Shown: piece by piece, positions 40,136-44,500 of the stretch
How positions within the stretch are numbered: the stretch's first letter is position 1
Layout: each line of letters begins with the position of its first letter
NCBI GenBank assembly: GCA_943788195.1
Contig: CALSPH010000001.1
Location: 557,673 to 621,672 of the forward strand
From: an uncultured Bacteroidia bacterium
GTDB lineage: Bacteria; Bacteroidota; Bacteroidia; NS11-12g; UBA955
Direction: 5' to 3'
DNA length: 64,000 bases
Made by a program: the position numbers and the translations under genes
The notes under the pieces: generated by a model
What the model saw: only the letters and a program-made list of their open reading frames with translations
What the model was told of the DNA's origin: nothing
Database searches by the model: none

Positions 40136-40636
40136 TCACATGTTTATTTTGTAATAAACAGAATTATCTATCCCTTCACATGGCGCAATCTTCCAAAATT
40201 CCATTCCGATTTTTTCTAATACCCGAATAGATGCGGGATTGTCTTGCGAAGCACGTCCAATGATTTCTTCCAGTTTTAGGTTAGTGAAACCATACTCCAA
40301 GCAAGCTTTTGCTGCCTCAGTGGCATATCCTTTGCCCCATTCATTACGAAGAAATCGAAACCCAATATCAATAAACCCTTCCGAATGTTTTTTGAGGCCA
40401 CACCAACCTAATACCTCATTGCTTATTTTGGATACTACTGTCCATCGTCCTAATCCATGCTGTTTATATTGGCTGTAATTTTTAATCAACTGCTCGGATT
40501 CTTCAATTGATTCAAAAGCGTTATCACCGGTATGGCGAGTTACTTCTGGGTCGGCATTCAAGTCAAAAAACACCTTGGCATCTGTTAACTCAAATTCACG
40601 AAGTCGTAAACGTTCAGTTTCTATGATCCATCTCAT
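40136..40636 (-). CDS. GNAT N-acetyltransferase (RimJ/RimL type)
   Basis: GCN5-related acetyltransferase. IIETERLRLREFELTDA is the typical N-terminus of the RimJ/RimL group; acetyl-CoA binding is in FRFLRNEWGKGYATEAAKACLEYGF (R/Q-x-x-G-x-G/A variant, about residues 93-117), followed by ASQDNPASIRVLEKIGMEF. 166 aa is normal. Targets may be protein N-termini or small amines; not determinable. With the hydrolase it forms a two-gene unit read leftwards, immediately outside the integrative element. Confidence 0.85.
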   Translation of the reverse strand: MRWIIETERLRLREFELTDAKVFFDLNADPEVTRHTGDNAFESIEESEQLIKNYSQYKQHGLGRWTVVSKISNEVLGWCGLKKHSEGFIDIGFRFLRNEWGKGYATEAAKACLEYGFTNLKLEEIIGRASQDNPASIRVLEKIGMEFWKIAPCEGIDNSVYYKINM

Positions 40637-40718
40637 GCTTTGGAGTATTTGCGTTCTTTGAGGTAAAGATACAGCGGGGCTACATAATTATATATCTAAG
40701 TTACTGTAGGTTACCTAA

Positions 40719-40751
40719 GACTCCCACTAATAACGGGAGTCTTTTCTTTTT
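40719..40751 (+). terminator. Rho-independent terminator without an upstream gene
   Basis: A 7-bp perfect stem, GACTCCC (40719-40725) and GGGAGTC (40735-40741), with a nine-base loop, followed by TTTTCTTTTT. It is oriented for plus-strand transcription, yet no plus-strand gene lies upstream (the GNAT and hydrolase genes are on the minus strand). It may shield the integrase from read-through or be left from a gene lost at the insertion site. Confidence 0.7.
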
Positions 40752-40790: not shown

Positions 40791-40817
40791 GAAAAACTGC
40801 CCTATATTTTGCCCTAT
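40791..40817. repeat. Left direct repeat (candidate attL)
   Basis: GAAAAAC then TGCCCTATATTTTGCCCTAT. The right copy (44131-44157) differs only at the seventh base (T for C). The repeat itself contains two TGCCCTAT octamers separated by ATTT, as expected of a recombinase-binding site. It lies 40 bases before the recombinase ATG. Confidence 0.7.
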
Positions 40818-40856
40818 TTAGTTTTTAGCATATATTCGATCTTACAACAACTTAAT

Positions 40857-42145
40857 ATGGCTACCTTTAACCTTTATCTTACCAATCCAAAGGCAACTAT
40901 TCCAACCTCTATCTATTTACAGATACAATCGAAGGGTATGAAGGCAAAATTCTTTGTCAAGCAATCCGTTCTCCCTAAAAATTGGAATTATAAAAAACAA
41001 CAAACAAAGGGACTAATAAATACACCTGAACTAAATGTTCTATTAGGGAGTTATATAGATGCAGCGAAAAAGGCTAATCTGAGGTTATTGGAGAGTCAAG
41101 GAATTGCAAACCCTCATAGAATAAAGGAAGACTAACAATAAAATTCTTTGACACACCACAGAGTAAAACAGATTATAAAAATATAACTAATTTAATAAGC
41201 TTTAGAGAAACGTATTTTAAGATTCTTGAAAAATCAAAAGGGGTTAAAGGAAGTGATAAAATTGCACCCTCAACCATTAAAAACTATAAGCAAACGTATA
41301 ACGTATTAGAACAGTTTCACGACTATACTAAGATAAGTTTAGAATTTTCAAATATTGACCTTGTGTTTCATGCCGAACTTATGGATTATTTAGAACTTAC
41401 AAGAAACTATAGTGCAAATACAGTAGCCAAACATATCAAACGCTTAAAAACCTTTCTAAATTCTGCACTTGAACTTGGCTACAATAAAAATGCTCAATTT
41501 AAGTCTTCCAAATTTTCTGCCCCTACTGAATCCGTAAACAATATATTTTTAACAGAACCCGAACTTGCAGCACTTGCAAAACTTAATCTTACAGCTAAGC
41601 CTTATTTAGACAGAGTACGGGACATGTTTCTGATCGGTGCTTATACTGCAATGCGTTACTCCGATTATTCAAAACTTGAATTTGCAAAATTTGAGGTAAT
41701 AAAGGGCAAGACTTATATCATTAAGAAAATGAAAAAAACCAAAGAAACAGAAGTTGTCCCCGTTCTACCAGTAGCGCAAAAGGTATTTGATAAATATACG
41801 AACAACGGAGTTTTAAAGCTGCCTAAGAGTATAAGCAATCAAAAATTTAACGAATACCTTAAAGAGTTAGGAAAACTAATTTTTAAACTAAATGAAACTT
41901 ACACCCTACATAGAACCACTGGAGGGCTTAAAACGTCTGTAAACAAGTTTAAATGGGAACTATTAGTTACACATACAGCAAGGCGAAGTTTTGCAACTAA
42001 TATGTATCTAAGAGGCATAAGCCCGAACTCCATAATGGGTGTAACTGGACACAAAACAGAATCAAGTTTCTATACCTATATACAGATGAACCCGAAGCAA
42101 AAGGCCTGTTCCCTTTCTTTCACACACGGTCAGTTGAAAAAATAA
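40857..42145 (+). pseudogene. Tyrosine recombinase/integrase, frameshifted
   Basis: Two ORFs make one integrase. The N-terminal part (ATG 40857, MATFNLYLTNPKATIPTSIY) has the arm-binding domain of Bacteroidota phage-type integrases (FVKQSVLPKNWNYKK) and stops at TAA 41133-41135. From 41129 another frame continues without interruption: LTIKFFDTPQSKTDYKNIT..., SPSTIKNYKQTYNVLEQF-like SAM domain, then the catalytic domain. Active-site residues are all present: R in YTAMRYSDYSKL, K in MKKTKETEVVPVL, HTARRSF (HxxR), VTGHKTESSFYTYI with the GHK histidine and the nucleophile tyrosine. Repaired, it would be about 430 residues. One indel near 41.1 kb has probably inactivated it. The SAM-domain segment reads APSTIKNYKQTYNVLEQFHD. 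Confidence 0.8.
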
Positions 42146-42290
42146 TTCCTTTCATGTGGGATGATTATATTGGCCCTAAGGTGTATCCACCTGCCCCTTA
42201 AACTCTTTACAAGAGTCGTCCGGGATTTGTCCGCTCAATAGAAAAGGAGCGAGGAATAACATCCGTATTCAAGCATGCTTTATTTAAAGA

Positions 42291-43906
42291 CTATTCAACC
42301 AAAAATGGATGCGAGTAATTTCCAGTACCTATAAGCATGAGTATAGCTTCCTTTTGGCAGCTTGCTTACGTCAATGGTAGAGTTTAAGCTGGATAGTTCA
42401 CCCTGTTTTACTTCTTGCCCTAAAGCATTAATAATTCTGAATTGAGAGCCGATAAGATTTGATTCAATCTTTAATATTTAACTCATTTGAGGCCGGGTTG
42501 GGGTAAATATGGAAAATCTGATTATTTCTAAGATTATCAACGCTTACTCCATATAATGAAAGCAAAGCTGCCACCGATGTATCTGAACAATACTGATCAT
42601 TGACAATGCATCTAAATTTCTGATTATTATTCGCTGACGTAACATTAGATATTGATAGATTTTTAGTTTGAGTGCCACTGTATTGTCCTGCGTTGGACAT
42701 TTTTTGATAACCGGTACCTATATCTGTTTGCCACTGGAATGTTAGACTTGGAGTACCTGAAGTTCCAATATCAAAGGTTGCATCTTGTGATATAAGAAGT
42801 GATTGATTGGCTGGTTGCTGGCTTATAAAGTCGGAGTTATTGATGGTTAAATTTAAGGTAACGATACTGTCACAACCAGTTGTATTCACAAAAGTATCTT
42901 TCGCTTTAGCATTGCTCTGGATATACGTTACGCCATTGGTCCATGTGTAAGAGCCACATGCCGTGATTGCATCGGTGGATGCATCGGAGTAATTGATAGT
43001 TAAATTTAAGGTAACGATACTATCACAACCAGCTGTATTCACAAAAGTATCTTTCGCTGTAGTATTGCTCTTAGTATACGTTATACCATTGGTCCATGTG
43101 TAAGAATCGCATGCCGTTATGGTATCAGAGATATACGTTTCTGTACATTCATTAAACAAATTACTTACTTCTGATAGAGTTAGGGCCCTGTTCCAAATTC
43201 CAATATCATCCAGACTACCATTAAAATGATACCAATGTCCATTAGCCATGTAAACTTCTCCAAATGTTAAATTGCCATAATTAGTTGATGAAGGAATAGA
43301 ATAAGTCATAGTGATAGAAGTATCTAGTATAGAATTTAAATAGTAATTAAGTTTACTTGAATCTTTATCATATGTTATGACTATTTGCGACCAAACACTA
43401 TCTGATATTTTTGTATTACCAAATTTAGGATTATTCTGGTTAAATGTGCAGTAGGTATTATTGTTAGATCCCTGTTTAGCCACTTGAAAACGAATAAAAC
43501 TTGTTTTATTTCCACCATCCCAAACTCCAAAAATAGTGTGTGGTCTACCTGCAAATCTCCCCGTTTTGGGTTTCAATTTTACCCAACAAGATATAGAAAA
43601 GGCTTGGCTTTTGTAAAGACTATCCATTACTTTACTATTTTGAGTAATCTCAATTCTATCCTTTGCCGTTCCCCAACCAGTTGATGTAATATCAAATTCA
43701 TAAGCGCTATTGGCTTCGCCTTTTCTATCGCTTGTTAAAGAAACACCATAAGCAATTCCGTTATTTCCATTGCCGCTACTATCGTTTGTATTCCCTGTAA
43801 AAGTCCACCAGCCTTGCAAACCATTTGATGGAACATGAGACGGCAATTGAGCAAAGGAGGGAACTGTAAACAAAAAGGCGAGAGTTAGGAGGGAAATATT
43901 TTTCAT
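42291..43906 (-). pseudogene. Secreted LamG/T9SS protein with two frameshifts in its sorting domain
   Basis: Signal peptide SLLTLAFLFTVPSFAQ and a concanavalin-like LamG domain (LQGWWTFTGNTNDSSGNGNN, FSISCWVKLKPKTG, FNGSLDDIGIWNRALTLSEV, residues 30-250). Two tandem SYTWTNG...GCDSIVTLNLTI repeats and an Ig-like QPANQSLLISQDATFDI module follow. The ORF stops at 42464 just inside the T9SS domain (IYPNPASNELNIKD). Beyond it the domain continues in other frames: ESNLIGSQFRIINALGQEV ... SKLPKGSYT, then LMLIGTGNYSHPFLVE ending at TAG 42291-42293. One extra A at about 42470 and a second indel near 42342 explain the breaks. Without its signal the protein could not be sorted by T9SS. Confidence 0.75.
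42847..43135 (-). repeat. Tandem 153-bp coding repeat in the LamG gene
   Basis: Two adjacent units with a period of 153 bases (51 codons), starting TTAAATTTAAGGTAACGATA at 42847 and 43000 on the plus strand, about 90% alike by eye. They encode the repeated ACxSYTWTNGxTY...GCDSIVTLNLTI modules. The high identity suggests recent duplication or recombination between copies. Confidence 0.7.
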
Positions 43907-44012
43907 ATTAACAAAGGTATTAATATTTCTAATAGACTTTATACTGGTCGGCTTTTATTATTTAGGTAGATCTATCACTAAGAATTGACCCCATGGCAGC
44001 GTATAATCAATA

Positions 44013-44066
44013 ACTGGATGAACCTGTTTACCGCCTGTTCCCTTTTCTTCACACACAACCAATAAA
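44013..44066 (+). pseudogene. Relic of a second integrase C-terminus
   Basis: This frame encodes NWMNLFTACSLFFTHNQ and a stop, matching the end of the integrase in this element (IQMNPKQKACSLSFTHGQ). At DNA level GCCTGTTCCCTTT..TTCACACAC is shared with 42104-42127. Nothing of the rest of a second integrase remains. It lies 65 bases before the right repeat. Confidence 0.6.
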
Positions 44067-44130
44067 GAAGTATTATTTTTAAAGTAGACACAACTAAACA
44101 CTAAAAAAAGGGTTAAACTATAAAAATTGG

Positions 44131-44157
44131 GAAAAATTGCCCTATATTTTGCCCTAT
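44131..44157. repeat. Right direct repeat (candidate attR)
   Basis: GAAAAAT then TGCCCTATATTTTGCCCTAT; 26 of 27 bases equal to the left copy at 40791-40817. It is followed after 22 bases by the stop of the DUF2834 gene on the minus strand. Confidence 0.7.
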
Positions 44158-44179: not shown

Positions 44180-44500
44180 TTATTGACTACTAATGTATAG
44201 TTCGATTCCTAGCGGGAATGCACCTGCAATCCCAAACAATAGCGTGAGAATCCAAATGACTCGAATGTTTTTTATGCCGTGCTTCTTCGCATCGATATAC
44301 GACCAAATAAAGAAAACCAATACAATGAATAACAGGTCGACAATGAAGGCAGTCGAAATGTGATTTGCAAACATCCCTTGCATGGTTGCCAAGGGGTTTG
44401 CATAAAGCAAGACATTACCCGTTTCGATGGTTTCCATGGCAACAAAAATGTTTGGGGCAATAAAGCCGAGAATGGTTAATACGAGATATAGATTTTTCAT
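44180..44500 (-). CDS. DUF2834-like membrane protein
   Basis: 106 residues with three hydrophobic segments: LYLVLTILGFIAPNIFVAM, TAFIVDLLFIVLVFFIWSYIDAKKHGI and IWILTLLFGIAGAFPLGIELYI. The central helix followed by D-A-K-K-H-G-I matches the DUF2834 family (FWS..EA+..G). Function unknown, inner membrane. It sits just outside the right repeat and is divergent from gcvT. Confidence 0.7.
   Translation of the reverse strand: MKNLYLVLTILGFIAPNIFVAMETIETGNVLLYANPLATMQGMFANHISTAFIVDLLFIVLVFFIWSYIDAKKHGIKNIRVIWILTLLFGIAGAFPLGIELYISSQ

Follow-up and report, generated by a model that had tools for sequence, protein, structure and literature searches.

A decayed, probably IntDOT/NBU1-like integrative element that interrupts the 3′ end of a DUF2834 gene of an uncultured Bacteroidia bacterium, probably at a secondary site

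The integrase, its cargo and a dispersed repeat

In the window (the whole stretch of 64,000 nucleotides analysed here, from an uncultured Bacteroidia bacterium), a tyrosine recombinase gene and an oppositely oriented surface-protein gene lie between a GNAT acetyltransferase gene and a DUF2834 gene. The main features are as follows.

40136..40636, − strand: GNAT acetyltransferase gene, originally directly after the DUF2834 gene with an ATGA overlap
40719..40749, + strand: hairpin with T-run, resembling an intrinsic terminator, between the left end and the integrase gene (−12 kcal/mol, z −5.2)
40857..41135, + strand: 5′ part of the integrase gene, arm-binding domain (PF17293, Arm-DNA-bind_5), ending in a frameshift
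41138..42145, + strand: integrase core-binding and catalytic domains (PF13102 Phage_int_SAM_5, PF00589 Phage_integrase), in a different frame
42291..42463, − strand: frameshifted remainder of a T9SS sorting domain
42464..43906, − strand: LamG/T9SS surface-protein gene (PF13385, Laminin_G_3)
43977..44066, + strand: copy of a dispersed repeat of about 90 bp (nhmmer, 80.5 bits)
44180..44500, − strand: interrupted DUF2834 target gene, with native codons at 44217-44500

The first-pass annotation had placed a tyrosine recombinase just inside the left of two flanking repeats, and this gene is indeed there, though split by a frameshift near 41133, which interrupts the reading frame after the arm-binding domain and before the core-binding one. 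With all three domains present, the product appears to be an IntDOT/NBU1-like integrase of the IntCTnDOT subgroup. Between the element ends given below, only the integrase and T9SS genes were found, with no excisionase, mobilisation or replication gene. Open reading frames cover 73% of the element, versus 93% outside it, and its GC content of 34.8% is the lowest among the sampled 3.5-kb stretches of the window (median 39.2%). Some of the frameshifts could be assembly errors.

The LamG/T9SS cargo gene annotated on the opposite strand is likewise present, but its open reading frame ends early: the rest of the T9SS sorting domain is read in other frames as far as 42291, across at least two frameshifts. 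The segment 42191-42506 is 88% identical to a T9SS gene elsewhere in the same genome (C2:263638), which has a different N-terminus and sits in no recognised element. The 3′ part of the cargo gene thus has a wider distribution than the element, a pattern that favours exchange among T9SS genes, and the element may have acquired its T9SS gene later, or the gene may have been reshuffled. Over about 1.1 kb, the host gene outside the element (L246:4301-5951, G000:C2) shares 94.6% DNA identity with L018:8763-9847 in G022, a genome of the same family but another genus; its N-terminus is unlike that of this counterpart, making it a chimeric surface protein.

The supposed relic of a second recombinase, at 43977-44066, proved to be something else, as it matches the integrase gene only over 24 bp of the last codons. 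The matching part (about the last 15 codons) falls within the dispersed repeat, half of which (42075-42132) is overlapped by the last integrase codons. Beyond these two window loci, the repeat occurs elsewhere in the same genome and in G022 and G013, that is, in three genomes of two genera (L246:11364-11449; L247:1207-1298; L248:121-210; L018:12202-12291), with the pattern TTGACCC..GGCAGGG..CCTGCAAACCGCC.GTTCCCTTT..CACACAC. A known RNA was rejected as its identity, with no Rfam match and unremarkable folding. It was also considered as a right-end signature of all related elements, but a profile search found it in none of the nine complete relatives described below, nor did that search support a resemblance seen by eye to the right end of one of them (L109). 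The copy on G022:C26 lies near an excisionase-like gene and tRNA-Asn; there, L247:980-1300 reads dispersed repeat, doublet-like GTGTAACAAAAGTGTTACA, hairpin and then tRNA-Asn, and is probably another element end.

Element ends and the interrupted DUF2834 gene

The presence of an integrative element, proposed in the first-pass annotation, is supported by a reconstructed empty site, whose boundaries lie at other positions than those proposed. The features that define them are listed here.

40673..40678, no strand: left att core AGCGGG (attL), the left element end, from joined-flank tests
40679-40683: GCTAC, the remaining part of the attP core
44200..44210, + strand: GTTCGATTCCT, element-borne T-arm part of a tRNA-Arg(CCU)-like attP core, from the match of a deduced 22-mer
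44211..44216, no strand: right att core AGCGGG (attR), the right element end, from joined-flank tests; the homology to G022 stops at 44208

The two copies of AGCGGG lie 3,538 bp apart, giving an element of about 3.54 kb. The last residues of the present DUF2834 protein are supplied by the element, whereas the lost C-terminus is encoded at 40633-40672, on the far side of the insertion. When the flanks are joined in silico at AGCGGG, a DUF2834 protein of 109 amino acids ending in PLYLYLKERKYSKA is rebuilt, its TGA stop codon overlaps the start codon (ATG) of the GNAT gene beside it, and the Pfam score rises from 59.6 bits (profile positions 1-89 of 96) to 73.6 bits (1-96 of 96). With a profile of DUF2834 homologs from other genomes used for scoring, the eight equivalent junctions that yield the 109-residue protein rank at the top of 26,080 tested, at 124.5 bits, compared with 120.5 for the best other junction and 105.5 for the present gene. 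Other shared words of at least 6 bp near the ends were tried as junctions and rejected, since none restored a gene. The predicted empty site would read ...AAAGATACAGCGGGAATGCACC..., and the insertion, with these ends, can be read from the sequence itself. The short overlap of 6 bp counts against the AGCGGG ends. Natural empty sites were sought by two routes: the other genomes of the family searched gave no DUF2834 match, and the neighbourhood around GNAT orthologs was not syntenic.

Put together, the element ends give an attP core, GTTCGATTCCTAGCGGGGCTAC, composed of GTTCGATTCCT-AGCGGG-GCTAC. This 22-mer matches the 3′ end of tRNA-Arg(CCU) at 22 of 22 positions in G022 and at 20 of 22 in the host; the element would therefore have been built for tRNA-Arg and lie here in a secondary site. 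No element copy turned up at the host tRNA-Arg(CCU) gene, the deduced primary target (L194). Downstream of that gene, the same locus carries sequence that reads like an IS6-type transposase.

Flanking repeats as putative arm-type sites

The 27-bp repeats noted earlier at 40791-40817 and 44131-44157 are confirmed, with 26 of 27 positions identical. Each contains a doublet, TGCCCTAT-N4-TGCCCTAT, with a period of 12 bp, about one helical turn.

40798..40817, + strand: left doublet, putative integrase arm-type site, 125 bp inside the left core
44138..44157, + strand, same orientation as the left one: right doublet, putative integrase arm-type site, 73 bp before the right core

The 20-mer TGCCCTATATTTTGCCCTAT has exactly two copies in the window (none expected from 100 shuffles), no third one appears there at up to three mismatches, and the 2.53-Mb genome holds the two window copies only. 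That the repeats flank the integrase and LamG genes and are absent from the rest of the genome would favour reading them as attL and attR of a minimal cassette comprising an integrase and a surface-protein gene, as had been proposed. This reading is nonetheless highly improbable: joining the repeats restores no gene, the empty site expected from it (40790 joined to 44158) has the wrong boundaries, and related loci contradict it.

A doublet with a sequence of its own precedes the start of most of the more closely related integrase genes by about 5-60 bp, although not every relative has one, and some show none above the level of shuffled sequence. In nine relatives, doublets in the same orientation were found at both ends, and in all nine the att cores lie outside both doublets, as direct repeats of 13-27 bp, eight of them at tRNA or tmRNA genes. 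In eight of the nine, core and doublet are separated by about 128-151 bp on the integrase side and by 71-79 bp at the other end, and the ninth is mirrored (70/138). The corresponding distances in the window fit these values, and its ends were found without using them. In addition, two IMG/VR contigs (L070 and L071) show the order doublet, core-like segment, doublet, integrase, as in attP. Because the att cores of relatives lie consistently outside the doublets, the doublets are most likely arm-type sites for the arm-binding domain of the integrase, placed just inside each end, a geometry legible in the sequence. The CTnDOT integrase is known to interact with subterminal arm sites (PMC8138268).

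G022 is also informative in this respect. Its sequence is 86% identical to that of the window over 44030 to about 44208, at the right end of the element, and this homology runs about 50 bp beyond the right repeat, through TATAGTTCGATTCC and up to the tRNA-like core, where the sequences diverge, contrary to what repeats serving as attL and attR would predict. After the divergence, G022 continues with CTCCGGCACCA, which has the look of a tRNA-type 3′ end, a hairpin similar to that at 40719..40749, a degenerate left repeat and an integrase start, apparently a second element in tandem. At this apparent tandem junction (L018:12058-12110), the tRNA-type 3′ end GTTCGATTCCCTCCGGCACCA differs from the tRNA-Arg(CCU) core of the window. 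Of the public sequences that contain the 20-mer, only L064 (JAURQA010000233.1, by sequence the G022 contig) holds a related element. Other matches to the 20-mer pattern (Butyrivibrio, Maricaulis, Bacteroidales, Chromatiales, Aquimarina and two viral contigs) were set aside, with no convincing match to the integrase of the window.

Origin, cargo class and known systems

Taken together, the locus is best explained, with a probability of roughly 0.9, as a decayed 3.54-kb IntDOT/NBU1-like integrative element of Bacteroidota that has inserted at a secondary site, the 3′ terminal part of a DUF2834 gene. The integrase would have recombined a circular attP, with a core from the tRNA-Arg(CCU) 3′ end, with a weak secondary attB sharing AGCGGG alone, and this insertion would have severed the last DUF2834 codons and parted the gene from its GNAT neighbour. 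In attP, the P and P′ arm-type sites would flank the core, integration would put them just inside each end, and the N-terminal arm-binding domain of the integrase would bind both doublets. This direction of events, together with a loss of excisionase and replication genes, is presumed from the present arrangement, in which the decay itself is apparent.

A class of 'integrase plus adhesin' cassettes, suggested in the first-pass annotation, found no support. Among the 66 proteins of the nine complete relatives, those with core repeats at both ends, nine are HTH_17 and eight excisionase-like proteins; Rep_1 occurs in two, and some have genes for restriction or of BREX-like or MADS-like type. No T9SS family appears in them among the 25 of 41 Pfam and 25 of 55 NCBIfam families listed. 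In addition, the 3′ part of the cargo gene is common to a host gene outside recognised elements. Two degenerate loci, those of the window and G022, do not make such a class.

A related proposal holds that there is a lineage of carriers in which a T9SS surface-protein gene converges on the integrase gene and whose normal state includes the loss of other genes. The G022 locus, the sole other one with the same arm sequence, fits this in that its T9SS gene converges on sequence resembling an integrase tail and is accompanied by a MORN-repeat gene with weak similarity to an adhesin family, a parallel that hints that a T9SS gene convergent with the integrase is older than the window copy. Both loci are degenerate, however, and the proposal is quite unlikely given the excisionase, replication and often defence genes of the nine relatives, the lack of T9SS families among those listed for them, and the presence of the T9SS 3′ block in a host gene that belongs to no recognised element. 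An extension, also quite unlikely, is that some elements with the TGCCCTAT arm sequence are dedicated T9SS carriers in which the integrase-adjacent sorting-domain block serves as a fixed module that accepts new N-terminal domains; if this were true, element movement and homologous exchange would together diversify the cell surface.

Under the preferred reading of a decayed IntDOT/NBU1-like element, the element itself is ordinary, and the useful part is the set of doublet-to-core distances. In relatives with two doublets, one before the integrase start and one in the same orientation near the far end, the att cores are found some 130 and 78 bp outside them, a ruler that can locate element ends even where an att repeat is so short (6 bp in the window) that it would be overlooked. 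It also carries a warning that the most visible repeats around an integrase need not be att sites. In the open literature searched, which stopped short of the primary work on IntDOT arm sites, no published statement of this spacing was found; specialists may know of it.

Several known systems resemble the window element. NBU1 and CTnDOT (PMC8138268) share with it a Bacteroidota tyrosine recombinase with an N-terminal arm-binding domain, subterminal arm sites and a tRNA-type core, NBU1 using the 3′ end of a tRNA-Leu gene according to a title cited in PMC8138268. Unlike them, the window element lacks excisionase, mobilisation and replication genes, its integrase gene is frameshifted, and it occupies a protein-gene site with a 6-bp overlap. 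The 10K island of Riemerella anatipestifer (PMC6764341) is alike in its Bacteroidota tyrosine integrase with an IntN1-like C-terminal domain and in its use of a tRNA-Arg gene, of which the isoacceptor may differ, but it is 10 kb long with 53-bp att repeats, and its excision and integration have been shown experimentally. Salmonella genomic island 1 (SGI1) has an integrase placed in the same subgroup (PMC8138268) and is known for a secondary attB and tandem arrays (PMC2297512), yet it is a large mobilizable resistance island of Enterobacteriaceae whose primary site is the thdF 3′ end (PMC2297512). Within the same integrase group, the complete relatives L109 (G008, tmRNA, 5.65 kb) and L111 (G089, tRNA-Phe, 7.06 kb) have, like the window element, a hairpin and a doublet before the integrase gene and a doublet at the far end; in contrast to it, they retain an intact integrase, an excisionase-like HTH gene and a replication-like gene, with cores of 15 and 27 bp, respectively.
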